From Escallonia rubra (Eukaryota > Streptophyta > Magnoliopsida > Escalloniales > Escalloniaceae): 64,000 nucleotides of DNA. Every line of letters starts with the position of its first letter. Within the stretch, counting starts at the first letter, position 1. The notes beneath the pieces are model-generated. The model was not told the origin of the DNA and did not search any database. It saw only the letters and a program-made list of their open reading frames with translations. The DNA lies in NCBI GenBank assembly GCA_033065855.1, contig JAVXUO010001562.1:653533-717532 (forward strand), in the 5' to 3' direction. The position numbers and the translations under genes are program-made. Positions 5,649-57,800 of this stretch are shown here, one piece after another.

Positions 5649-6450
5649 CTAACCAGGAAAAAAAAGTGAGTTAAGGCAGTGGTGGTGGACGACGACAGTG
5701 GTGCACGGAAGACAGCGGGGGGAGGGGGGACTGTGGCGATGGTGGTATGAATGTGAGGTGGCTATGGAGTGGTGGTGCGATCGTGGGGTGGCTGTGGCAG
5801 TGGCAGTGGTGGGGTAGCTGCGGGGCGGTGAGGTGGCAATGGTTATACGGCTGTGGGGTGACAAGGTGGCTATGGGGCCGACACATTTGAGGGGAAAGGG
5901 AAGGGCGTTGTGGTGGTAGGGGCCTGTCACCGGCATGGTGGTAGAGAGGGACAAAGGCGGGGATGTATGGTGGAGGGGACAGTGGATGAGGTAAAGGGGA
6001 CGGTGGAGAGAGAGAGGGGGGGGGGGGGAAGTGCACCGGGGAGAAAAGATAAGGAAAATAGGGTTACGTGACTTTTAGCGACGGATCTTTGTTGTTGCTA
6101 AAGGTCCGTCCCTAAAAGTAACCTTTTTAATCCAATTTTAGTGACGAACTTTTAGCGACGGAAACAATCATCGCTATAATGCTTAAACATTTTTGCAAAA
6201 TACTACTTTCAGCGACAGATACCCGCTAAATGTCCGTCACTAATTGTTTTCTCCCAGGCTAAAAATCTGATAAAAAATAAACAAATTACAAAAAAAATTA
6301 GCGCCGAAAATTCTGTTGGTATTTATCTGTCGCCAAAGTGCATCGCAAAACTTTTAGCGATGGACTTTTTGCGACGGGGGCCTCCGTCTCCAAAGGTGAC
6401 TTTTAGCGACGGCTTTGTGTCCATCGCTAAAGAATTGTTTTCTTGTAGTG
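5649..6450. mobile_element. CACTA element right end (solo)
   Basis: The block ends at 6442-6450 with CTTGTAGTG, the CACTA terminus. The preceding 380 bp holds many direct and inverted copies of TTTTAGCGACGG and its variants, the subterminal repeats typical of En/Spm-type elements. The purine-rich core 5,649-6,040 gives only low-complexity His/Pro-rich ORFs on the minus strand. No matching CACTACAAG start was found upstream, so the left end is deleted or outside the window. Confidence 0.7.
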
Positions 6451-9053: not shown

Positions 9054-10990
9054 ATTACGGGTCATTTGTGGTTGTGGTGGATGGCGAGCTACGTCCAGGC
9101 CAGTGGTTGGGTCCTTGGCATCGCCTGCTAATGACGAGGCACATAGCATGACCATCCAGGAGGTCCTGACCCCAGCCACAACCACAACTTACAGTCCTAG
9201 CCCCAGGCGAAGCTATCCCAGTCGCATGTTGGTTCTTCTTCTTCAGTGAGTTTGACGTCATTAAGTATATTTGATATTAGCATTTAGTCATCATGTCCAC
9301 CTTCTATTTGAAATGCATTAATGTTGGTATTTTGGAGGATCTCGTCGAGGTCGTGGACCCACACGCGGGATGAACATCGATCCCCAGCGAGTTACTCTCA
9401 TCAAGGATGGCTAGTAAGTAAAAAATCACATAATGCAGTATTGACACTTTAATGATTCCGATAGTTATTCTTGTTCACTTATTTAATGATATTAATGTTA
9501 TTCTTTATCATGATCTCGGAGTGTGCGGTGAAAACGAAGATCGGTGTCTTTGTGAAGGGCCGCTTCTTTTAGCCACTACTATACTAGAAGGACTGGGATG
9601 CCGGGAGGAAGGAGAACCTGTAGGAGGAGTGGCCAGTATGGTTTGATGAGTTCTCAGCTAATATTTGTTTAATTAGTACTTTATATTTAAATTAATCATA
9701 CTGATTGTATAGTTGGATGCATCGCATGAGGAGTTCGAGTTTTTGTCACCTATGCAGCAAGCACTGAGGAGGATGACTTTTTTGCCTGCATCGCCAAAAA
9801 TTACAGGCGATGGTTACACGATGCATGAGAATTGGCGAGGAAGTTGCTATTGGAGGGTGCCCCGATGGACGAATAGAAAGGGTATCCCCCTCATTGGATC
9901 TCACCATATGTATGGGGGCAGATGGTTGATAGGTGGATCATTGATCCATCTTATGAGGTGAAAAGTACGAGTGGGAGGTCTAACAAAAAGGATCAGGATC
10001 CTATGCACACGGAAGGGTCAGTGCCTCACGACATCGTCCGACATAAGAATGTAGCTGAGCATCTGCACCTAGAAAAGGTTGAGGCGTGTGCTTTGACATA
10101 CACGATGACGCACATGACAAAAAAAATAAAGATGATGCCTATCGGGCGGGGAGTTCGTTTCACAGGTTGCTTGGCAGATCGATGTAAGTTACAAATTAAC
10201 TAGTTTATAGTTAAAAATTTTGATAATGTCTTCATTATCGAGTGGCACTACAAGAAAAGGGATTTTTAGTGACAGACAATTCCGTTGCTAAAAGTCCATT
10301 TCCCGTCGAAAAAGACTTTTAGCGACAGACACCCCGTCGCCAAAAGTTCATTGCCATTAACCCTGTCACTAAAATAGCGCCAAAAAAATTGACTTTTAGC
10401 GACGGGACGATAAAATCAATATCGACGAAATTTTCATTGCTAAATTAATTTTTGTATTTTAGTTTAATTTCTTTTTTTTAATTAATAATTTCAAAAAAAT
10501 ATTTAGCGGCCTCGTAAGAATAGATTGGAGGGTCTCGGTAGCAGTTCGGTCAGCCATCAGCGTCCACTGGTACAAGTATGAGTACTAAGGGATTGAAGCG
10601 GTGGCTGGATACACTGTGAGTCATCGAAGAAGGAAAGGGCGTGTACGCGGCCTGCCCAGCGTGACTACACGTGCCATGATGGGAGGGCCCCACCCTTTAC
10701 TGCCCTTCCACAGGCACAAACACCGACCGCGAAGCGACAGTTACACTTGGAGGATGTTCGTCGCATTGCTCGAGAGGTGGTCAAGATGATGAGAGCCCAG
10801 AATGAGGTACAAAACAGTTACTTTATGAAGCCAATATACATGAATAAACACAATATACAAATACTAATGAGAATGATTGCGTGCTTTTAGTGTAGGACAT
10901 TATAGCTGGGCAGTCCGAGCCGGATCCGGATGACACCCCCGTGGACGATGACGAACATGGTTCAAATCCCGGTCTTGACGAGCCCTGAGC
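9054..10990 (+). pseudogene. CACTA second protein (Transposase_24 family), decayed
   Basis: Remnant of the TNPA-like protein of CACTA elements. Readable pieces are FGGSRRGRGPTRG (about 9,330), VDRWIIDPSYEVKS (9,925), NKKDQDPMHTEGSVPHDIV (9,981), AEHLHLEKVEACALTYTMTH (10,054), GQPSASTGTSMSTKGLKRWL (about 10,550) and a C-terminus DPDDTPVDDDEHGSNPG ending near 10,987. The same protein, better preserved, is on the minus strand at 51,726-52,700 and gives the exon order. Frameshifts and stops are frequent. The last intron contains a CACTA left end (10,246-10,510) that is absent from the other copy. In active elements this protein binds the subterminal repeats. Confidence 0.7.
10246..10510. mobile_element. 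CACTA left terminus inside the Transposase_24 intron
   Basis: CACTACAAGAAAAGG at 10,246 is followed by subterminal copies of TTTTAGCGACAG/GG. The flanking triplets (TGG on the left; TCT after 11,734) do not match. It is therefore not clearly the partner of the right end at 11,734 and may be a solo end. Confidence 0.65.
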
Positions 10991-11239: not shown

Positions 11240-11734
11240 GTATAATAAAATTAAATTATTTTTAGCGACGGATTTTTTTCTCGTCACTAAAAGTCTACAA
11301 TGACAGTGTTGTGAAAATCTTTTAGTGACGAAAATTATTTTGCCAACAAACCTTTAGCGACAGAATGCCCATCGCTAAAGTTCCATTATTTTTAACGAAA
11401 GAATTTTCGTCGCTAAAATTTCGTCGGTAAAACATTTAACGACAGAATTTTCCATAGCTAAATATTTTTTTAATTAATAATTTCTAAAAAAATTAATTTA
11501 AGATACGAAAATTATGCTTAGCGACGGAATTTCTATTGCTTAAGGAATTTAGTTTCCGTCGCTAAAAGTTAGACTTTTGGCGATGAGTTTTTAAAATTTG
11601 TCGCCAAACTTTTAGCGACAGGGTTATAAGCGACAAACTTTTAGCAACGGAGTGTCGCTAAAAGTCTTTGGCGATAGAATAAGGACTTTTAGCAACAGAA
11701 TTATCCGTCGCTAAAAGTCATTTTCCTTGTAGTG
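11240..11734. mobile_element. CACTA right terminus with subterminal repeats
   Basis: Some fifteen copies of AGCGACGG-like repeats in both orientations end with TTTTCCTTGTAGTG at 11,721-11,734. This is the likely right end of the decayed CACTA element whose coding remnants lie at 7.5-11 kb. Confidence 0.75.
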
Positions 11735-15850: not shown

Positions 15851-16928
15851 CACTACAAGAAAGGGACTTTTAGCGACGGATATTTCCGTCGCTAAAACCC
15901 TAAATCCGTCGCCAAAGACTTTTAGCGACGGACACCCCGTCGCTAAAAGTCTGTTGCCTATAACTTCGTTGCTAAAAGATTAGCGACGGAATTATGTGAT
16001 CCGTCGGAAAAAAAATAACTTTTACCGACAGAATTATTTACTTTTAGCGACGAAATTTTCCGTCGCTAAAAATATTTTCTATATTTTTTATAAAAAATCT
16101 GAATTTTTGAATTTCGCCGGCAGTGGGTTCTTGGCCGGTGGAGTCCTTGCCTCACCGTCGCCATTCACCGATCATTTATACTTCCAGATCGGCGTGTCCA
16201 CGGCTCCACTCGTTCCAGATCTGAGCCGAGCTCAATAGAGAGAGTCGACTCAAGGAGGCAGGAGCCCCTGCCGTGTCTGCGTGTCGCCGTCGACCGTCGC
16301 AGGTGAGTGGCCGAGTGGATGTGTGCCGTCTGGGTCTGGGGAGTGGGTGAGAGACTTGGCATAGAGAGAGAGTCGCAGACTGAACTTTTTTTTGGGAAGT
16401 TGAGGGGGTACATTAGCCCCCCCTCGTTCATACGTAGCTCCGCCCCTGTGTGTTGGCGAGCGGTAGAGGCAGCGGGGTGGGGGTGCGGCAGCGGGTTGAG
16501 TGTGTGGGAGGTGAGTGGTTACGATTTAGGGTTGGAAAGAGAGAGACTGAGATAGAGAAGAAGGGAATGGTGTGAGCGGCGGGGAGAAAAGAACGAAGGG
16601 GTAGGGTTTTTTAATTTTAAGGGCTTTTTACCGACGGATTTTGGCCGTTGGCAAAAGTTCGTCGGTAAAAGTCATTTTCAATTTTTTTTGGAAAAAGAAA
16701 AAAAGGGAGACAATCAAAAATAAAAATTAACGACGGAATATTCCGTCGGTAAAAGTCCGTCGGTAAAGATCCGTCGCTAAAGATCTTTACCGACGAAAAA
16801 TCCCTCGGAAAAGTTTTTTTAACAACGGACCTTTACTGACGGAAATTTTGTCGGTAAAAGTGACTTTTAGCGACGGATTCCAATCCGTCGCTAAAAGTCC
16901 GTCGAAAAAAGCTGTTTTTCTTGTAGTG
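15851..16928. mobile_element. Intact-looking non-autonomous CACTA element, 1.08 kb
   Basis: The left end CACTACAAGAAAGGG starts at 15,851 and the right end TTTTTCTTGTAGTG finishes at 16,928. Both are flanked by the triplet ATA (15,848-15,850 and 16,929-16,931), the 3-bp target duplication expected for CACTA elements. Subterminal arrays of TTTTAGCGACGG and TTTACCGACGG lie at both ends, many as inverted pairs. The core has no transposase. It ends 467 bp before the bHLH start codon, so it lies in that gene's promoter region. Confidence 0.9.
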
Positions 16929-17003: not shown

Positions 17004-17394
17004 AGTCCTCAGACAAAAAGCCGAAAAGAACACCACATTAATTGTAGTTTGCTATCGAGCGCAAATAGCATGGGTATGTTTATGAGACACGGAGTTTTTT
17101 TTTTCACCTTTTTATTTATTTTTAGATATTTCTTCATTAGTATTTAAACTGGAGACAATTTTTATCTTTAGCCTTTAGCGACATACAGATTACAGAGTAG
17201 AATACTGTCGCATAATTGCAAAATGAAAACGTAAATAGAACTTTAAAAACGAGTATCCGACAAAAATTGGCCTAACTTTTCGTGGTCCGAAAGGACGCGA
17301 TAAAGCTTGGGGAATGATCGGACAAGAACTCACAGCAAACCCTAGACTGAACGCGAAGAACCTTAGAGACCAGAGCTTTCCAAAAGTATCCAGC

Positions 17395-18634
17395 ATGCAG
17401 CCACCTGAAGACTTGCCAGAAAGTTTAGACCCTTACCAATATCAACATGACAATTCCGTTGAGGATGCCGGATTCTCATCGAACTATCACTTCCCGGCGA
17501 TGCAAAGCTATAGCAGCTCATCGTTTTTCCCCTGGGAGGATCAATCGGGTGTTACCGATACGCCACAGGCTCGAGCCCTCGCTGCTTCCAGGGCTCACAA
17601 TGAAGCTGAGAAACGGCGTAGAGAGAGGATCAATACCCATCTCGACACGCTCAGATCCCTTCTTCCCTGCAATTCCAAGGTATTAATCACTTCCCCTCCC
17701 TTAGTTTTTGGTTTTTGTAGTGTGTGTGTGTGTGTGTGTGTATGTGTGTGTGTGTATGTGTGCTTTTCCATCTGTAAACTAATTTAGCAGCTTTAATAAG
17801 TATTAGTTCTTGAATTTCGATATATGGGCGGGAGTTGGCTTCTTTCTTTCACCCTGGTTGCAGCAAAAAATTGTTCTTCATTTACCATTTATATTATATG
17901 TCATGGTTTCAGCTGATACAGTTATAATTCTGGGATTATAGTTAACATATATACTACCCTATTTTGTTAATTAAGCTGTAGAACATTGAAGGTTTTTTTT
18001 TTTTTTTTTTGATAATCCAATTCTGAATATTCAAACCCTAAAGGTTTTCTTGAAGCTTTTAGTCGAACTATCTGAAAGTACGGTTATCTGAAAAGAATAG
18101 AATTAAACCCTTTTCTTTCTTTCTAGGGTTTATTGGTTTGGGAAAGTGGTTTAGCTTTTTGAAAGTAGGGTTTCTAAATTTTTTCTCTTTTTCTTTCCAT
18201 AGACAGACAAGGCTACACTGCTTGCAAAAGTTATTCAGCGGGTGAAAGAGCTTAAACAGCAGAGTTCTGAAATTGACCAACTGGAGGCATTCCCTTCGGA
18301 AGCTGACGAAATCACGGTACTTCCCGGGGATGATTCCGGTGGCTGCGATGGGAGGTTAATCTTAAAGGCTTCGCTGTGTTGCAACGACAGGATTGATCTA
18401 ATACCTGACCTGATCGAAACGCTTAAATCACTCGGGTTGAGCCCTTTAAAAGCCGAAATGATTACATTCGGTGGGCGAATGCGAAACGTTATGATCGTAA
18501 CAGGTGAGAAAGGTCGTGGTGAAGACCATAGCCATCAGACGGTCCAGTTCTTGAGGGAAGCATTGGCATCTTTGGTTCAGCATTCGAATTTCAAGGCCGG
18601 GGAGAGGTCAAAACGAAGGCGAGTTCTCGGTTGA
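17395..18634 (+). CDS. bHLH106-like: bHLH transcription factor, bHLH106/bHLH107 type
   Basis: Two exons, 17,395-17,679 and 18,203-18,634, are joined across a GT/AG intron of 523 bp in phase 0 and encode 238 aa. The basic region has His68, Glu72 and Arg76, the H-E-R pattern of G-box (CACGTG) binders, within AHNEAEKRRRERIN. The helix-loop-helix runs to about residue 117 (TDKATLLAKVIQRVKELKQQ), with the intron in the loop. A C-terminal ACT-like region (about 135-210, with LILKASLCC and GGRMRNVMIV) and the ending ERSKRRRVLG match Arabidopsis bHLH106 (253 aa), as does the MQP start. An in-frame ATG at 17,314 would add 27 residues without family similarity. Family members are nuclear regulators linked to salt and other stress responses. 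A CACTA element lies upstream; the 3' UTR probably ends before 18,900. Confidence 0.93.
17719..17761. repeat. (GT)n microsatellite in the bHLH intron
   Basis: About 20 GT units with two interruptions (TATG), 40 bp after the intron donor. A likely length-polymorphic marker. Confidence 0.9.
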
Positions 18635-29417: not shown

Positions 29418-29471
<54 letters not shown>

Positions 29472-30274: not shown

Positions 30275-33157
30275 ATGCTAGATTTTGACGCAACCAGACC
30301 AAGCACTACCTCGCCCAATTCTCAGCTGCTGGTTACCCTCACAAACAATTCCATGACTCAATGTAATTACATGACTCAGCCACTTCCTGTGCTATCTTCC
30401 CCTACCAGATCTCAGTGTAATTACATGACTCATAGTGGAAGGACACCAATGGCTTCTCAAAGTTTTCAGTCGATTGAGGAAATTGATACGATCGAAGGTT
30501 TGACTGATTATGCTATTCCCGATACTCATGCTCGTGATGAACCTAGGATAGATGATGTTTGTGATCTTTCGCAATGTGATAATGAAATTGCTCATGATGA
30601 ACCTAGGATAGATGATGTTTGTGATCTTTCGCAATGTGATAATGAAGTTAGCCTAGAGAGAATAAAGACTGTGAAAATTTTGATACTCAACAGATAGATG
30701 GAAAAACATTTGATACGCTGGCAGCGGCATATGAGTTCTATAATCAGTATGCTCTTTTAAATGGTTTTGGTACTCGCAAACACAATGCGCATAAGATTAG
30801 GGCCACGGGTGCAATTTTTAAGAGGCAATTTGTGTGCAATAAGGGGGCTTCAAGAAATTGGATGACAATAGACCGAATGTGAATGAAAAAGGCGTAGGGA
30901 CTTGAGAACTGGTTGCAAAGCGATGATGCAAGTTACTTTGCCAAAGAAGCTTGGAGTGTGGGTGGTCAACAAGTTTTAAGATGTTCATAACCATCCGCTC
31001 ACTACAACTCCATCAAAGGTAATCAAGCATCGTTCTCATAGTAAGTACCATCGTACAAACGTATGTAAGTATCTAGTGTCTGACCTTAACCACGAGGGCC
31101 TGAAAGCTTATCAGATTACTAGGGTTGTGAATGTGATGAAGCCCAGCGAGGAAGTTGACGTAACTCCAAGACAACGTTCTAGCATTATACGCATCGAAAG
31201 AAAAAATAACGTGGGGAAAGAATGTTATGGGATTATTAAACATTTTCAAGAGAAAGTCACGTTGAATGACAATTATTATTTTGCTATGGATTTAGCTATG
31301 GATGGTTCTCTCATAAGTGTTTTTTGGGCTGACGGAAGGTCAAGGGCATCGTATGCACAGTTTGGTGATGATATTGTATTTGATGTGACTTACATGACTA
31401 ACAAATTTAGGATGCCATTTGCTCCGTTTGTTGGAGTAAACCACCACCAGCAGTCTGTATTGTTTGGAGCTGCATTATTGGAGGATGAGACAGAGGTAAC
31501 ATTTGTGTGGTTGTTTGAGCATTTTTTGCGATGCATGTTTGAGAGGCCCCCGACTGCAATCATTACTAACCAAGATGGAGCAATGAGAAATGCAATTGCA
31601 AAAGTGTTTCTAAATACGCGGCATCGTTTTTGCGCATGGCACATTAAGAAGCACGTCATGGAGCATCTACAACCATTGCGATCCCGTTACGATGACTTTC
31701 ATGAAGCCCATATCAACTGGACAAAAAGTCAGACTGTTGAAGATTTTGAGGCCACTTAGGTGGATTTGAATGACAAATATGAGTTAAAAGAAAATTAGTG
31801 AATTCAAAATATGCACAACCTACATGCACATTGGGCAAAGCCTTTTCTCAAAGATAATTTTTTTGCTGGCATGACCATGAGTGGACGAAGTGAAAGCATT
31901 CATTCATTTTTTGACGGGTATATGAATTCTAATACCATGTTGAATGAGTTTGTTGTGAAATATGACAAAGCAGTTTATAATCGAAGGTATGCTAAAGAAG
32001 ATGAATATTTTAAGACCATGAATTGAAGAGCAGTCTTATCATCTGATCATCCGATTGAAGTAAGAGCCAGGGAATGTTATACTCGTAGTTTGTTTGAGAT
32101 CTTCAAAAAAGAATGGAATGCTAGTTTTAGTTGTTCACACATAACATTGAGTAAGGAACCCGACATCACAAGGTACAGGGTGGGTCTGATAACTGTTGAT
32201 AAAGAGAAATGGCGAACAGTTCACTATTATTCATCAGAAAGTGTTAAGGCTACTTGTTCATGTGCTAAGTTTGAGACATCAGAAATATTATGCAAGCATA
32301 TCCTTTATATATTGAAGAAAAAGAAAATAACTTATCTTCACGAGTGCTACATTTTGCCTAGGTGGAAAATTCATGCTCAGTATAAGGTAGGAGATGTTGG
32401 CGATCGAATGGACGAGATCGGGGGACATTCAATTGAAAAGGAAGTAAGCCTTTTAATGTTATGATCTGTTTAAGCAAAGTTTTCAAAGGCAATAGATAAT
32501 GGAAGAAATTGTCCTTCAGAAATAAGTGAGATTGATGCATGGCTTAGTAGCTTTTTGGAAAAACAAGCTGCGAGAAACAACGTGGAGAAACTTGTTGGCG
32601 ACAAAATGGTTAGTCAAGTTGGTTCAAGTACATGTGTTTCTCAAATGGAAAGTAGGCATCAGATTTCTATACGTGACCCTGCTGCCCATGTTAAGACCAA
32701 GGGACGCCAAAAGGTTGCTACTAGGTTGAAATCTTCTATTGAATTGGCGAAAGAAGAAAAGAAACAAAGAACTTGTGCATATTGTCATAGGAAAGGCCAT
32801 TACCAAACTGATTGTGCTACGCGAAAGGTATATTTTGAAGTCAACTTCACATACTACTTTATTTTTCAATGTAATATTATGTTGTGTGAATCATTTGAGA
32901 GATATATACTAACTTATAAACGTGCATGATCTCAGAGGGATGAAGGAGAGGGAAATTTTGTTCAATAGCTGCATATTTGCGTAAGATTTGATTTAACGTT
33001 ATTATTTTCTGACGTTGTTCTTCCACTCCTCCTGCTTCTTTGTTGACATAACTGATTACTCTTGTTTGTATGTAGGACCACTGCAAGAAAGGAGTTCGAT
33101 TACATAATGAATAGGCGTTGTAGACGTGCAAAGGCAATTGCTAGGGATTTATGTTGA
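30275..33157 (+). pseudogene. FAR1-type MULE transposase, inactivated
   Basis: Domains appear in FAR1/FHY3 order. The FAR1 DNA-binding region (about 30,700-31,030) has DTLAAAYEFYNQYA, FVCNKGG, RRDLRTGCKAMMQVTLP and DVHNHPL. The MULE transposase domain (31,300-31,990) has first Asp in DIVFDVTYMTNKF, second in TNQDGAMRNAI, and Glu in VEDFEAT. The SWIM finger CSCAKFETSEILCKHIL is at about 32,254-32,304. A zinc knuckle CAYCHRKGHYQTDC is at about 32,775-32,816, and a last exon KEFDYIMNRRCRRAKAIARD ends at 33,157. At least five stops and frameshifts break it, including TAG where the family has Trp after FEAT (31,757). The N-terminal ORF has a perfect-period 60-bp duplication (about 30,533-30,652). 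FAR1 genes are light-signalling factors domesticated from such transposases; this copy looks like a transposon relic. No terminal repeats were located. Confidence 0.85.
30533..30652 (+). repeat. 60-bp in-frame tandem duplication
   Basis: Two nearly identical 60-bp units encode DEPRIDDVCDLSQCDNEI/V twice near the N-terminus of the MULE ORF. The reading frame is preserved and few differences separate the copies, so the duplication is recent relative to the frame-breaking mutations. Confidence 0.85.
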
Positions 33158-40846: not shown

Positions 40847-41157
40847 TGTGGGGTTGAAATAGTTGGTGAGTAATGGTAGGGAGTTGATTTGAGATGAGTT
40901 TTTGGTATGCATGTATGTTCACAGTTTGGTGTGTACTTGGTCATCAAAGCTGTGGGGTTGAAATAGTTGGTGAGTAATGGTAGGGAGTTGATTTGAGATG
41001 GGCTTTTGGTATGCATGTGTGTTCACAGTTTGGTGTGTACTTGGTCATCAAAGCTGTGGGGTTAAAATAGTTAGTGAGTAATGGTAGGGAGTTGATTTGA
41101 GATGGGCTTTTGGTATGCATGCGTGTTCACAGTTGGGTGTGTACTTGGTCATCAAAG
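40847..41157. repeat. Tandem array, 104 bp x 3
   Basis: The unit begins TGTGGGGTTGAAATAGTTGG at 40,847, 40,951 and 41,055 (exact 104-bp period), with few differences between copies. No coding function is evident. Confidence 0.93.
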
Positions 41158-48939: not shown

Positions 48940-49941
48940 GACGTGTTTAACACACATGAGCCACATCCAGACATTCTCTTCCACCAATTACTACCTTTTG
49001 ATCTCACCAATCCATTCCACAGAAGTACTTTCTTCAGGGTCCAATTCTATCCAGGGCATGCTATATGGGTACACAAAGAAAGTTCCAATAATGAGGGAGG
49101 GTCCATTGAACCCCCAAAGTAAGTTAGGAGGTCTAAACTGTAACTTCTCCCTCATTTCCTCAGAACAAAAGAGATGCCTGGGCAAAGTTTATGGCAGTGT
49201 TGAAGGTGGCTTTGGACATGATAGTTAAATGTAGTAGATGGGAGTGATTTATTGTCTTAATTGAGCGGCTTCAAGAAGCTTGGAGATGGCACTTGATAGT
49301 GGGGATGTACAACAGTCAAGTACATCTAAGGATAAATAAAGATAGGTTGGAAGAGGTAGCTCTACCTACTAATATACAAACATCAATCATCCAACCCTAC
49401 AAACCAAAAATGTGCACAACTCCTTCTGAGTTACAGATCAAGTTCTTGCATTCTTGGTCAACCATCAAATTTGTTCAGTCTCTTGGTCAAACAGCAATTC
49501 CTAAAAATATGTTAGACATGGATTAATGTTTCTGTCCACTTTACTACTACTTATCTGAAAAAGGTATTCTTGAAGCAACATGTTGTTTCTCTCCGATCAA
49601 TTGGAGGTCTAGTGATTTTTGCCAAAACAAGCTTCGGCGTTCTGGGCGTATGATGGAAGCATGTCGATCTTGAGATCTCTTGAATTGGATGATTATATTA
49701 GATTTGATGTTGCCATAGATGTACAACACATGGTTACTTATTCACAAGATCAAGGAAAAAACACAACAAAGTGGAGATTGAATCTCAAAAGAAACAAATT
49801 CCTTCAATCAAAAGATAGATTTAATCAAGGAGCTACAATGCTTTAACTAGCTAGAAAAACCTACTCTAATTGTAAAAGGGACAAGGAATTACAGAAGGAA
49901 AAATGAAAGAAACCTAATTGTAACAGGGCATAAAATAATAG
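48940..49941. other. Gene-free interval
   Basis: Several ORFs of 60-90 aa on both strands but no recognised domain or splice structure. It is the insertion target of the Mutator-like element that follows. Confidence 0.3.
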
Positions 49942-50199
49942 TAGAAACTAGGGTTAATTACAAAACTGTCCCCTGAGATTTACACGTTTTTGCACTTTGT
50001 CCCCCGTGTTTACAACTTTTGCAATATTGTCCCCCGAGGTTGACAAAACCATTGCAAATAGCTCCAAAATTGAACGTCCGTTCAATTTTAGACGTTAAAT
50101 CGTCATGTGCGGTGCACATGCCATTTTGGCATGGGCAAAATTGTAATTTCCCCTTCCCCATCTTCCCCACTGTGTTCATCTCTATCTCTGTGTTCCCCT

Positions 50200-50603
50200 T
50201 CCCCATCTTCTCCTCTTTGAGTCCCAGCCGCAGATACCAGTTGGAACAACGGCCGCTCGACGGAGACATCGGGATCGGCGCCTACGATCACGGCGGCAGC
50301 ACCATCACCGAAAAGAGCCTGCCCAACGAGGGAATCCAGATGGGTGTCAGAGGATCCACGAAAAGTGACAATGGTGATTTCGGAGCAGACGACGAGGACG
50401 CAAGCACCGGCGTTGTTCTCGGCGAGATCCTTGGCCAGGCGGAGGACGGTGTCGCCGGTAAAGCAGCCCTGTTGGTACATCATCAGCCTCTTGACAGAGG
50501 GGCGGAGTCTGAGGAGCTTGGTGAGCTGGTAGTCGGCGCCGGGCATGTCGACGCCGGAGGTGGTGTAGAAGATGAGGTGGGTGATCTTGGACTTGGGCTA
50601 GCC
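50200..50603 (-). pseudogene. CHS-like fragment: Chalcone synthase fragment captured by Pack-MULE
   Basis: Minus-strand reading gives [92 protein letters not shown]. This is roughly residues 130-245 of plant chalcone synthase and includes the catalytic cysteine (Cys164 of the family, in QQGCF) and the CoA-binding neighbourhood. The frame is open for this stretch. The catalytic His and Asn and the N-terminal part are missing, and the sequence runs into the MULE terminal region. Chalcone synthase makes naringenin chalcone at the entry to flavonoids; related type III polyketide synthases cannot be excluded as donor. It is not functional as an enzyme. Confidence 0.88.
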
Positions 50604-51043
50604 CCGCGGTTTAGGTCCTTCCCCACCGAAATGAGCTGCAATCCACTGCAATGAGGCCCAAGAGTCTTCGTAAGGGATTGGCAGCGGGTTCTTCGGAGCG
50701 AGCCTGTAGTCGACGGACACAACTATGACCCGGGCCAGTGAGACGAAAGAGGTTAAAAGTTGAGGGTTACAACGTTGAAGGGTGATGCGGCATAAAAGGC
50801 TCCACCGTGGCAATGGAGAACTAGATGGAGCTTCTCTTCTGGGCCGGTGATTCTGGGCATGAAAACTCATGCCTTGATGCTGGGTTCTGACGAGATCACG
50901 ACGTCTTTTGCCTCGTCGTCGGTTCCGGGATCGAGGGTTGGTTCAATGTAAGGGCTCTCTGGGTAGCGTTCAACGCGACCATCTTTGTAGACTCGAAAAA
51001 ATGGTGGGAATTCATGGGTTATTTCAGTTGTGATTGAAGCCAT
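50604..51043 (-). pseudogene. CXE-like fragment: Carboxylesterase (CXE) fragment captured by Pack-MULE
   Basis: From an ATG at 51,043 the minus strand reads MASITTEITHEFPPFFRVYK, DGRVERYPESPYIEPTLDPG, then a TGA (about 50,869), RITGPEEKLHLVLHCHGGAF, YAASPFNVV, a frameshift, LTSFVSLARVIVVSVDYRLA and IPYEDSWASLQWI. This is the N-terminal half of a plant alpha/beta-hydrolase of the CXE/GID1-like family. It includes the oxyanion-hole HGG; the GxSxG nucleophile region lies beyond the break. Some 60 bp upstream of the ATG resembles a 5' leader, so the donor's gene start was captured. It is fused at 50,603/50,604 to chalcone synthase sequence. Confidence 0.85.
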
Positions 51044-51158
51044 TGCAGAAGTAAATAGAAAGGTGAAGGGGTGAAGGTGCTTCATGTAGGTCTTACAGAG
51101 AGAGATGAACACAGTGGGGAAGATGGGGAAGGGGAAATTACAATTTTGCCCATGCCAA

Positions 51159-52745
51159 CACTACAAGAAAAAAAGCTTTTAGCGACGGGAAAATCCGTCC
51201 CTAAAATAATTAGCGACGGATTCACCGTCACTAAAAGTCCCTCGTATAAAAGCCCGTCACTAATAGTTTAGCGACGGAATTTTGAAATCCGTCGCTAAAT
51301 ATATAATTTTTTGTGACAGATTTATTTTTAATTAGTGACGGAATATCCGTCGCTAATTATATTTTTGTCAAATTAGCGACGGAATAATGTTTTAGCGACA
51401 GAATATTCCATCGCTAATTAACTGATTGTATGAATACTTTTAGCAACAGAATTAATCCGTCGCCAAAAGTCAAAATTTTTTTGAATTTTTTTTTATTTTT
51501 CAATTACCCAGACTTGTAATATAATTTTCATTTCTCAACAACAACGCGCAATAATCAATACACAAAGAAATATATATAATAAATCATAAAAAATGTTTAT
51601 TATAAAAAAGACTCATTATGTACAAGCCGGGAACTGGATACAGCCGGTTAGGGGAAGGGAGAAGAGTACAAGCCGATCGCGGGGGGGGGGGGGGGGAGTT
51701 AAGAACGGGCATGGGAAGGGGCTCATCAGGGGTTGCCGAGTCTCGGATCTGGATCTTGCTGATCCGGGGCAGGCTCGGCATGTCCAGCAGCGCCCTGCTC
51801 CCTGATCATCCTCACCACCACTGTAGCAATGAGCTGGATCTCCTCGTCGTCCAATTGACGCTGAGGAGCCGGTGTCTGTGGAGGGGCAGCAGGGGGTGAT
51901 GACGCTCTTGTCACGGCATGAGCAGTCGTGCTAGGCAGGCCGCGTATGCGGCCTTTCGGCCGATTCACGACCTTCGGCGTATCCAACCATCGCTTCAACC
52001 CACCAGTACTCGCAGCCGTACTAGTGGACGCTGATGGTTGTCCGGACTGCTGCTCGGACCCCCTTAGCTGTTCATACGAGGCCTGCAAAAACAGTGGTTT
52101 AACGATATGTTAGGGCATTAATTAACGAAACGGACATTGAGGATAGAAAGGCAAAACATTAACAACTTAAACAAATTGACTCACATCGATCCGCCGGGCA
52201 ATATCTGAAATATAGTCGCCCGCCGGGTGCACCTCGTCCTTGTCCTTCTTCCGCACGTGCGTCTGACTATAGGTCAGAGCTATGACCTCATACTTCTCCA
52301 GATCCGGGTGCTCGACCGCGTTCATGTGTCGGACGATGTCGTGTGGCACCGACTCCCCCGTGTGCGTCAGATCTCTGTTCTGTCTGTTCTCGGCCCGTTC
52401 TCTTACTCTTGGCGTCCCAGCCTGGATCCGCAGCCCACCGATCTATCATCTCCCCCCATACACGGTGAGATATCCAATGTGGGGGATATCTCGTCATCTC
52501 CGTCATCGGGGCACCCTCGGGCAGCATCTTCTTCGCCCGATCCCGTGCGTCGTGGAGCCATCGGCGGTAATTCTTGCCGATGTAGGCAAAGAAGGCCTGC
52601 TGCCCCAGTGCTTGCTGCTGAGGCGTGTCAAACGTGAACCCCTCCTGTAAGGCATTCAATAACACAAATTAACAACAAAAAACAAACTCTAATTAAACAT
52701 TTACTAACGCTGAAAAAAATACTTCACCGTACCAGCCACTCCTCC
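51159..52745. mobile_element. Truncated CACTA element inside the Pack-MULE right arm
   Basis: CACTACAAGAAAAAAAGC starts at 51,159 after the MULE arm sequence GCCCATGCCAA and is followed by AGCGACGGA repeats to about 51,470. The opposite CACTA terminus is missing: coding sequence of the second transposon protein runs to about 52,740 and is followed directly by a palindrome made of MULE arm sequence. The MULE arm resumes with CAAAATGGCATG at 52,766, giving a shared CAA at both sides of the insertion. Confidence 0.8.
51726..52740 (-). pseudogene. CACTA second protein (Transposase_24), partial
   Basis: Exons on the minus strand read, in order: FTFDTPQQQALGQQAFFAYI, GKNYRRWLHDARDRAKKMLP, PPHWISHRVWGEMIDRWAAD (52,665-52,400). 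These are followed in shifted frame by MPHDIVRHMNAVEHPDLEKY, EVIALTYSQTHVRKKDKDEV, HPAGDYISDIARRID (52,349-52,190). After a short intron comes MQASYEQLRGSEQQSGQPSA, STGGLKRWLDTPKVVNRPKG, RIRGLPSTT (52,088-51,900) and a Pro/Gln-rich and acidic tail with stop near 51,726. This is the Transposase_24 family of plant CACTA elements, which bind the subterminal repeats. It is the better-preserved relative of the copy at 9.1-11 kb. It lacks its N-terminus and has at least one frameshift between the first and second pieces. Confidence 0.82.
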
Positions 52746-52785
52746 GCGGTGCACATGCCATTTTGCAAAATGGCATGTGCACCGC
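52746..52785. repeat. Perfect 40-bp palindrome at a transposon junction
   Basis: GCGGTGCACATGCCATTTTG is followed at once by its exact reverse complement. Each arm equals MULE terminal sequence (compare 50,108-50,127). It sits exactly where the missing CACTA right end should be. Confidence 0.95.
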
Positions 52786-52944
52786 ACATGACGATTTAAC
52801 ATCCAAAATTGTTCAATTTTGGAGCTGTTTGCAATGGTTTTGTCAACCTCGGGGGACAATATTGCAAAAGTTGTAAACACGGGGGGTAAAGTGCAAAAAC
52901 GTGTAAACCTCAGGGGACAGTTTTGTAATTAACCCTAGAAACTA

Positions 52945-53512
52945 TTACAATATCTGGGGGTCGTAACAACAATTAAGATATTATGAAAGTTCGGTAACCT
53001 AAAAAGTAGTAAAATATCTTTAGTAGTAACTACTCAAATGTTCCGAATTAGGCTTAATCAACAGAATCACGACGCTCGCAAGTTGTAATAAAACTCTCGT
53101 GACTATTGTCTCGAGTAATCACGGCTTCCTTAACTCCTCACGAAGAGAAAAAAATGAAAAAGACACTAAGTACTACTTTGTATCACATTATTGCTACTTC
53201 TTGATAATATGAAGCTGAATGTGTTCAAAGAAATTGTTGGATTTTGGTTGATTTGCAAATCAAGAACTTGGTGATATTGCTCACCCAAGTTTTCATATTC
53301 AGCAAGTGTGAGTCAATGACATGGCGCTTCACTTGCAATTCCTAAACATCAGACTCGATTGCTAAGTGATCTAAATTTGGACTTCATCTTAACTAATTTA
53401 CGTTGCCACGGAAAAAATGACATTGTACTTTGAGCTTTGCAAAACATTTGGGATTCACATGCTTGACTATCTCTCGCAATATATTGTTTTTAAAGGCTGT
53501 TGCGATTGCCGA
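52945..53512. other. Gene-free interval
   Basis: Anonymous AT-rich sequence between the MULE target site and the SINE. Confidence 0.35.
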
Positions 53513-54085: not shown

Positions 54086-54817
54086 GTGGCTCGCTCTCTC
54101 TTTCAATAAGGACAGGCTGGAAGCATCCAAATTCCATCCCCACTACCATTATTAACAATTAATTATAGGCCTAACAGCAAAGGGATGATTTTCAAGAGAA
54201 CCATCAAACAAGGATGGAAATAAAACAAAATTCAAAGAAAAAGCCAATGGGGGAAAAGGAGGCTCGGGTTCCTTCCTTTTCCAATCCCTTTTCTTTTGCT
54301 TGCCCCCCTTGCTAAGCATCTTATGCTCACTTTTATGCCCATTTCTCTTCTCATTCTTTACCTTCTCGCTGGAAAATTTCCTGGGTTCTCTTCTTTTGCT
54401 TCTTCCAGCTCTCCAGGTGAAATCCGTTGCTTGATCCTGTGATTCTTGGTTGGCTTTAATAGTGTGTGGCATTGTTTGTTTGATCAGAAAGTTTAATCTC
54501 TTTTCTTCTCTATCTTTTCCCTTTTCTCGGAGTTTTCTTGGAATTTCAGTGTTTCCAAGAGCTCCTAGCTGGAAAGTTTCTGGGTTATTAAGAATTTCTT
54601 TGAAGTTTTTGTCTTGGTTTAGCTCTTGATATCTCTTGGGGTTTCTTGGAATTCTGGTTAGCTAATTTTCTGTTCACTTTCTCTGTCTCCAAGTTCCATT
54701 AGTGTTTTCACTTTGTTTTCTTCACCTTCAAAATGGTTTAACTTTTCCACTGGTTGGACTTTCTTTTCCGTACTCTGTTTCGATTTGTGATAATTTACCA
54801 ATTCGGGTTCTGATACC
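53740..54817 (+). promoter_or_regulatory. Upstream region and probable 5' leader of the kinase gene
   Basis: Contains a G-rich run (53,905-53,918), short (GA)n at 53,934-53,950, a (CT)n tract at 54,060-54,085 and T/C-rich sequence with TTCTTGG repeats from 54,480 to the start codon, typical of plant 5' leaders. No clear TATA box. The minus-strand ORF at 54,152-54,472 is Lys-rich shadow sequence. Confidence 0.4.
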
Positions 54818-57800
54818 ATGGGAATCTGTCAAGGAAAGCCCATCGCAAACCCTGAAACCCCTATTATTCCGGGGGAAAATGAGCCACCACTGAATACTCA
54901 AACTGGGAAATCATCAAATTTTCCATTTTACAGCCCGAGCCCACTCCCCAGTGCATTCAAGAATTCGCCCGCAAATTCGAGTGTGAATTCCACCCCTCTT
55001 AGGATTTTTAAGCGCCCATTTCCCCCACCTTCTCCGGCTAAGCACATTCGCGCATTGCTAGCGAGGAGGCACGGTTCTGTAAAGCCTAACGAGGCCTCAA
55101 TTCCTGAAGGGAATGAGTTTGAGGTTGGATTGGACAAGAATTTTGGGTATTCGAAGCAATTAATTGCCAATTATGAGCTTGGTGACGAGGTGGGTCGTGG
55201 GCATTTTGGGTATACTTGTTCAGCTAAGGGCAAGAAAGGGAGCTTGAAGGGGCAGGATGTGGCTGTCAAAGTTATTCCAAAATCTAAGGTCTGATTCTTG
55301 TACATTTGCACCATATGGTGTTTCTTTGCAGTTATATTCATTTGACCTAGTACATTTAAATGCAAAATTATACTTGAAGTCGTTTTAACTAAAACAAGTT
55401 TGTTGTTTGATTATCTTACGGACGAGGTGATTGGCAAACCATGTTATTGTGTTTCTGACACAGTGTTGGGGCTTCAAGCGGGTAGTGATGTCGGAATTTG
55501 TGATTGCTATTTCCATTTTTATTTGCAAGTCAAATGCCATCACTGGGTTTACGAGAGATTGTATCCCATGTCATACTAAGAGAACATCATGGATCAGAAA
55601 AGTTCTGTGGCATTGATAATTTAATAGAAGTATCGTTGGTGGGAATCAACGCTTTCCGTTGGTCGAAGACCATTGGATTTGCTGTTGTTCTTTATTCTTG
55701 TAGTTACGCTCATGTTATTTGTATAAATCCAAACCCTAAGTAGGACATTATGACTTTGTTTTGCCATGTTGGGGATTGTGATGTTCTTCTTCTAATTGAG
55801 ATAACACATGTTTCTGCAGATGACTACCGCTATTGCCATTGAGGATGTGAGGAGAGAAGTGAAAATTCTACGGGCTCTAACAGGGCACAAGAACCTAGTA
55901 CAATTTCACGATGCTTATGAGGATGAAGACAATGTTTATGTAGTGATGGAGTAAGTTTGACCAAGTTTCTATTAATAAGTGTTCTATGTTCTTAAACACT
56001 TCCACCTGATGCTATTAGTTTATAGCTACTTCATTGCCGTTTTCAGTATACAGAATAAACATTGATTTTGCACGATTGTCACTAAAGGAAGTTTAGTAGC
56101 TTTCTTTTTGTTTATTACCCATTAAATAGTCTGCTTCTGTTTGTGACATTGGGAAATGTACTTCGACTTGATTGTTGTGGTTGATTCAGTGAAACAAAAC
56201 CAATTAGAGTGTCGATGTCAACCTATCAACTGGCATGTAGCTAACGGTGCTTTCAATTGAACGTGGCTGAATCATACATAGCTAGTTCTTACATATTTCT
56301 GTAAGAACTGGGAGCAGCTGTGAGATAGTTAATTTTTGTAAAAAATTCTGAACCATGAGGTTTGTAGTTCTCTAGGATCTAGATGGTGGCCTTAAATGAT
56401 TTTTCCATACTCTAACATAGGTGATCTGCCTTCAAACTTTTTTCCCTCGTTTTTCGCGTCAGACTATTGTCGCTGAGAAGATGAAATTTTTTCTCCTTCT
56501 ATGGCAAGGAATAGTGTCCTTCTGTTCCATTCTGAAGCTTACTCAATTTAATGTTTTATGCCCTTCAGGTTATGCAAAGGAGGTGAATTACTAGACAGGA
56601 TACTTTCCAGGTACTCGTATTCGAAAATTACTTTCCCGCATGAAAAGAATTTGGCCTGTTTTTGCAACCTTGTGATTGGCTAATGATCCATTCTTGTTCT
56701 TTCTCTAGGGGTGGAAAATACCCAGAAGAAGATGCAAAAGCTGTCATGGTCCAAATTTTAAGTGTGGTTGCTTATTGTCACTTCCAAGGCGTGGTTCACC
56801 GTGACCTAAAGCCAGAGGTACTTTACCATCGAAAGCTCTCTATTTTTATTCTCTGGATAGTTTGGAAGGCATTAGCAGATAGTGCTAGTTTGAAAAGACA
56901 AACTTCAGCAATGTTTGCATTTAGATGTGCAGATGTAAGATGAAATACCATTGTTTGGCTTCGATAGATTTGTATAAAAGCCACCCCTTGTTTATCACTG
57001 GCACCTTTTGTTCATACATCTTAAAAAGGGTATTAAAAAATTATAGTATACAAGAACTTTATCTCCCTCACAAGTAGAACGTGAGTCATCACCTTATCCA
57101 AATTGAGTCATCAAGAATCTTAGTTACTGGTGACCACCTTCATGAGGACCTTTGAGTAGAGCTTTCTTGATCAACCCTTGCTTCTTGAAAGTGAGGCATT
57201 CCCTAGATAGAAATAGTAACAGACTTGGCAATGGCCAGTAATAGTTTGGCATTTCCTCGAGCATCCCCCAGGGTGTTTGAAAAGGGATATCAGAGGGTTT
57301 TGGAAAACAAGAAAAAGAATACAGAAGAAGGAAGAAGGAAGAAGGGGGAGAGTGGTGAGAGCTAGTGTACCAGGCAGCTGAGACAGAGGGAGTGAGAGTG
57401 CACGGAGCTTCTACCTATATCCTTTCTTTTGTTCTTCTCATATCTGTCTTCTCATTCCTTCGGCTTAAAGAGCGTGACTCCATGAAATGGTGCAGCAGAA
57501 GAATATCTTTTCCTTCGAGTTTGTGCAACAGGGGAAGGTTTAAGGATCTAAGGGAAAACTGTGTATTCTGCCCTCGTTTTTTACAACTTAAGTCTCTCGT
57601 TCGGCATGATCTTATGCTTCTTTTTCAGTGCAACCTAGTCTTAGCCCGCCATTTTATTTTCTTTCATTTAGTATTACCCCAGAAATTGTGGTTATTGTAG
57701 AACTACATGGTCTACATGAGTGTGCTTGGTTTAAGTTTATTTTTGAAAACTTGGTTCTTCAAAAATTCCATTATATTCCGGGGTTTGCATCTCAAGGAAG

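Follow-up and report, generated by a model that had tools for sequence, protein, structure and literature searches.

A Pack-MULE with directly joined carboxylesterase and chalcone synthase pieces, interrupted by a CACTA remnant, in Escallonia rubra

A block of some 3 kb in the Escallonia rubra genome, bounded by a perfect 9-bp duplication, had been read from its letters alone as one Pack-MULE in which fragments of a carboxylesterase (CXE) gene and a chalcone synthase (CHS) gene were fused. The locus raises the question of how many elements and how many capture events lie between the two copies of the duplication, and whether the chimera could still be of any use. The window, meaning the whole stretch of DNA that was analysed, is 64,000 nt long with a G+C content of 39 % (contig JAVXUO010001562.1, positions 653,533 to 717,532). 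The reading favoured here, with a probability of about 0.88, is a non-autonomous multi-donor Pack-MULE of approximately 1375 bp, now decaying, which was later split by a CACTA element. The features are as follows, in window coordinates.

49942–49950, no strand: left copy of the target duplication TAGAAACTA, from the 9-mer match
49951–50191, no strand: left MULE terminal inverted repeat (TIR), 241 bp, from alignment to the right arm
50192–50220, no strand: spacer repeating part of the inner TIR in direct orientation
50221–50603, minus strand: internal CHS piece, from Pfam and PDB matches; TAG at 50600–50598
50604–51094, minus strand: 5′ CXE piece with leader, from Pfam and PDB matches; ATG at 51043
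51095–51158, no strand: inner part of the right TIR, ending in the left CAA (51156–51158) of the CACTA duplication
51159–52745, minus strand: CACTA remnant, with terminus CACTACAAGAAAA at 51159, sub-terminal repeats and open reading frames like those of another CACTA-associated stretch; other terminus absent
52746–52765, no strand: 20-bp filler, exact inverse of 52766–52785 and identical to 50109–50128 in the left TIR
52766–52768, no strand: right CAA of the CACTA duplication, matching 51156–51158
52769–52935, no strand: outer part of the right TIR, totalling 231 bp with 51095–51158
52936–52944, no strand: right copy of the target duplication TAGAAACTA, from the 9-mer match

Both copies of TAGAAACTA are identical, and among the 60,900 start positions tested in the window this pair is the only exact 9-mer repeat at the spacing of the duplication, so the perfect 9-bp duplication of the sequence-only reading stands. 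The inverted ends, put there at about 270 bp, measure 241 bp on the left and 231 bp on the right. With 51159–52768 left out of the right arm, 225 of 231 aligned positions are identical, with 6 mismatches and gaps of 8 and 2 bases; the TIRs pair over their full length only when the CACTA block is left out in this way. Repeat analysis returned three pairs of inverted arms (49939–50075 with 52811–52947, 50083–50128 with 52766–52811, and 50126–50187 with 51097–51158), the last of which places the inner part of the right TIR 1.6 kb inward of its outer part. Removal of the inner block and one CAA gives the Pack-MULE length of 1375 bp. Between the left TIR and the CHS piece, 50193–50219 forms a 27-bp partial direct repeat of 50148–50174 in the inner left TIR (89 % alike); it is absent from the aligned right arm and possibly arose by slippage during synthesis.

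Pfam searches of seven longer frames of the element returned no MULE transposase domain. Within the window, the TIR, the CHS piece and the CXE piece have no further copy by BLAST and the flanks of the element no other match, and the first 15 bases of the TIR, with up to two mismatches allowed, occur only at the element's own two ends. With a 9-bp target duplication, long TIRs, two pieces of host genes and no transposase in the scanned frames, the element shows those defining features of a Pack-MULE that can be read from the locus itself, and that part of the earlier claim is upheld.

Both host gene pieces are well identified by homology. The CHS match runs from 50597 to 50221 on the minus strand and covers 124 residues (Pfam PF00195, E 1.3e-58), and the best PDB chain for the piece is a chalcone synthase (E 6.5e-66). 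On the CXE side, the frame 50942–50598 matches Abhydrolase_3 in Pfam (E 1.7e-12) and plant CXE-like PDB chains (E 9.8e-11), and the N-terminus at 51043–50870 likewise matches plant CXE-like chains (E 3.8e-8). The stretch of 37 residues between them (50866–50756) contains CHGGAF; searched alone against the PDB it returned no CXE, and two ubiquitin matches at E about 0.04. Reading is broken by a TGA at 50869–50867, by a one-base frame change near 50756 and by the TAG at 50600–50598. The description of a 5′ CXE piece with leader and ATG, lying in the same orientation as a CHS piece, therefore holds, with two stops and a frame change that it had not mentioned. The CXE piece also ends short of the GDSAG stretch, which is present in the CXE probe used for the join and presumably holds the nucleophile serine. 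A continuous host CXE–CHS gene was also considered and is rejected in view of the enclosing TIRs and target duplication and the truncation of both pieces.

The two pieces, both on the minus strand, abut directly and in frame at 50603/50604; this is exactly where the join had been placed, and it is confirmed there to within one ambiguous codon. The codon concerned, 50606–50604, could belong to either piece and now reads CGG. Apart from the TAG, the frame continues across the join from the last CXE stretch to CHS; one PDB search, on the CHS side, read the TAG as a residue. In both of the two printed CHS alignments (of 26 matches) the similarity runs through KEWGQP, which places 50606–50604 at a tryptophan position of CHS. 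Relatives of the CXE piece have proline-tryptophan at the join in all four printed alignments (of 11 matches). The probe used there was extended with a CXE continuation that itself carries the tryptophan, and three of the four alignments show additional residues inserted immediately ahead of the tryptophan. Tryptophan has TGG as its sole codon. As both families have a tryptophan at the join and a single codon encodes it, the donors probably had TGG in common there, in the same phase; the present CGG demands a later T>C change if they did.

This coincidence bears on the number of captures, which the sequence-only reading had put at two or more. Separate capture of CXE and CHS at different times, with the pieces later adjoining in one Pack-MULE, would suit two unrelated donor families, and multi-fragment elements are known (PMC9168764, in part). 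Against it, there is no sequence between the pieces, the frame is continuous and tryptophan occupies the join in both families, so that one event suffices; we regard separate captures as a real contender that is nevertheless the less probable course. Two captures are possible but not required, since the in-phase tryptophan of both families would let a single repair event do the work, and one template switch at the shared TGG would account for both the join and the preserved frame. For animal Pack-TIRs, microhomology of 1–36 bp (median 2) at at least one breakpoint has been reported in 190 (67.6 %) (PMC8277862, in part). A shared codon of 3 bp, as proposed here, speaks only weakly for template switching.

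Decay is visible in the CHS piece. Over its first 103 residues, three PDB chains, none of them the donor, agree in 92 columns, and the element departs from the invariant residue in 8 of these, one adjoining GCF, which we take to hold the active cysteine. Read along the sense strand, all nine base changes deduced at invariant positions are C>T or G>A; a rough null model, with a 4 to 1 weight on transitions and taken over unchanged invariant codons, would expect 0.34 per change. Together with the two stops, which were added to the context count because they fit, 5 of 11 changes lie in CG, 4 in CHG and 2 in CHH context; of the 230 cytosines scored across the CHS piece, the corresponding shares are 0.29, 0.23 and 0.48. 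The pattern points to deamination of methylated cytosines, as in a silenced element. Against methylation, the CpG observed/expected ratio of the CHS piece is 0.96, which is not depleted, and the change in the join codon is T>C; the substitutions scored are those of the CHS piece. The two TIRs differ from each other at 6 of 231 positions, and the CHS piece looks to have changed more than that; this weakly suggests that capture predates insertion at the present site, although the TIRs may have been homogenised.

As a protein gene the CXE–CHS chimera is probably dead. A working fusion enzyme is rejected in view of the stops, the frame change, the altered invariant residues and the end of CXE before GDSAG. 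A chimeric CXE–CHS RNA is compatible with the strand and order of the pieces; if transcribed, the element could yield a sense CXE–CHS RNA that starts in the right TIR; transcripts reading through both TIRs could fold into a hairpin that might feed small RNAs. A further step, in which the chimera is an expressed and selected gene or supplies small RNAs that act on CXE or CHS genes, would draw on the unbroken frame over the join and on reports that captured fragments are sometimes expressed and can be siRNA reservoirs (PMC13317346 and PMC1947982, each in part), but the two stops, the frame change and the 8 altered columns of 92 make such a role very improbable.

The block that splits the right TIR, 51159–52765, is 1607 bp long and is flanked on both sides by the 3-bp duplication CAA. 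Repeats of the TTAGCGACGGA type follow the terminus CACTACAAGAAAA at 51159. With up to one mismatch allowed, CACTACAAGAAA occurs at 10 places in the window, 51159 among them; CACTA-type ends, their sub-terminal sequence alike by eye, lie at 6450, 10246, 11734, 15851, 16928, 36304 and 42178, and the matches at 33079 and 35161 are without such sequence. Within the block, 51802–52083 and 52179–52667 resemble window positions 10793–10508 and 10189–9705 at 69–70 % DNA identity, and the stretch 9705–10793 lies no more than some 2 kb from the CACTA end at 11734. The minus-strand open reading frames of the block resemble those of this other CACTA-associated stretch; in Pfam, three frames of the block gave no family above the cut-off. 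A second inverted CACTA terminus was not found in the block, the 20-bp inverted filler standing in its place, and 51159–52745 is for that reason named a remnant. A long G run at 51680–51697 falls within the remnant, and the assembly may be unsure there. Elsewhere in the window, 15851–16928 is a 1078-bp element with inverted CACTA ends and a 3-bp ATA duplication; it is probably a small non-autonomous CACTA and served as a control pair.

The block makes up more than half of what had been taken for a single 3-kb element, and that description gives way to a Pack-MULE of about 1.4 kb with a CACTA remnant nested in its right TIR. In favour of the older description, everything lies within the outer inverted ends and the two copies of the 9-bp duplication; but the block divides a TIR, opens with a CACTA terminus, has CAA on both sides and carries reading frames 69–70 % like those of another CACTA-associated stretch, and the view that it is just a part of the interior has next to no chance of being correct.

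The broken end of the CACTA remnant has a structure of its own. Together with the adjoining flank, the filler forms a perfect 40-bp palindrome (52746–52785) with its midpoint at the outer edge of the CAA duplication; among the best eight palindromes listed for the window, the longer perfect ones are those of an AT repeat near 29445. The palindrome is likely the scar of an aborted excision or repair. Since its centre lies at the expected cut point, cleavage with fold-back repair of the flank is favoured, whereby the flank would have been copied back on itself and then joined to the CACTA interior. The alternative is that the left TIR, and not the adjoining flank, was the template of the filler.

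Under the favoured reading of a Pack-MULE later split by CACTA, a non-autonomous Mutator-like element would have gained the CXE 5′ end and the internal CHS piece, most likely in repair synthesis within the MULE, with one gene being copied before a switch at the shared TGG. The Pack-MULE would then have reached its present site by cut-and-paste, as the 9-bp duplication suggests. A CACTA element would next have entered the right inverted end, making its 3-bp duplication, and failed excision or gap repair may afterwards have taken away one CACTA end and left the inverted filler. A bolder version, which we consider doubtful, holds that the element was born with an in-frame CXE–CHS fusion of about 313 codons through one switch within the common tryptophan codon, and that the CACTA scar preserves a cut made at one end and mended by fold-back copying. 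The predicted fusion reading frame would open beside one TIR and close in the other. If this were true, microhomology capture would tend to produce in-frame chimeras where conserved residues with a single codon coincide.

The element ends 1883 bp (1.9 kb) upstream of an ATG at 54818 on the plus strand, in the open reading frame 54794–55294, whose product we take to be a CDPK-related kinase; this presumed kinase N-terminus had no match in the PDB or Pfam. The open reading frame 60159–60491 matches calcium-dependent protein kinases in the PDB (best E 1.4e-31) and Pkinase in Pfam (E 3.1e-23), and the two frames probably form one CDPK-like kinase gene. The position of the element upstream of this probable gene raises the possibility of a regulatory effect. 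Elsewhere in the window, frames at 30980–32464 encode a SWIM zinc finger (E 6.9e-6) together with a MULE transposase domain (PF10551, E 2.5e-28) and may stem from either a MULE transposase gene or one of the FAR1-like type; the window scan at up to two mismatches placed no TIR start of the Pack-MULE near them. Frames at 17239–18634 have a helix-loop-helix domain (PF00010, E 3.1e-9 for 17239–17787) and are part of a bHLH transcription factor gene, and a 104-bp unit at 40847–41157 occurs as three head-to-tail copies with 96 % matches.

Jiang et al. reportedly described, in 2004, Pack-MULEs holding fragments of several genes. MULEs are characterized by target duplications of 9–11 bp, TIRs of 100–500 bp and promoters in the TIRs (PMC3310237, in part). 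Because Pack-MULEs with fragments from multiple genes (PMC9168764, in part) and nested insertions in MULEs (PMC3903597, in part) are both in print, the present element is not a novel kind. It is ordinary as one more multi-donor Pack-MULE, and its worth is that of a clean worked case: the join at a tryptophan of both families makes microhomology-guided template switching directly checkable against donor sequences, and the nested CACTA lets the events be put in order and supplies a clearly marked scar.

With the published multi-gene Pack-MULEs it shares long TIRs, a 9-bp target duplication, host fragments of more than one gene and the lack of a transposase (PMC9168764, in part), and it differs in details only, namely the CXE and CHS donors and a join on the tryptophan codon of both families. 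In the portions covered of the Pack-MULE literature naming chalcone synthase or carboxylesterase, capture of either gene was not found. Tgm-Express1 of soybean is likewise a DNA transposon with unrelated host gene fragments, five in number, but is itself a CACTA, whereas the carrier here is a MULE and the CACTA a later insertion without captured pieces (PMC1947982, in part). A second transposon within a MULE has parallels: among candidate coding-MULEs, nested insertions are recorded in 191 of 530 from maize and in 195 of 476 from rice; those counts concern coding MULEs, whereas the present element is a non-coding Pack-MULE struck in its TIR (PMC3903597, in part). Finally, rice excisions left filler DNA in 58 of 94 cases, with a mean of 13 bp and a range of 1–123 bp, and the 20-bp filler described here is of similar size and also lies next to a target duplication; unlike those scars, most of one side of the CACTA persists, and the filler is the exact inverse of the adjoining flank (PMC4423477, in part).
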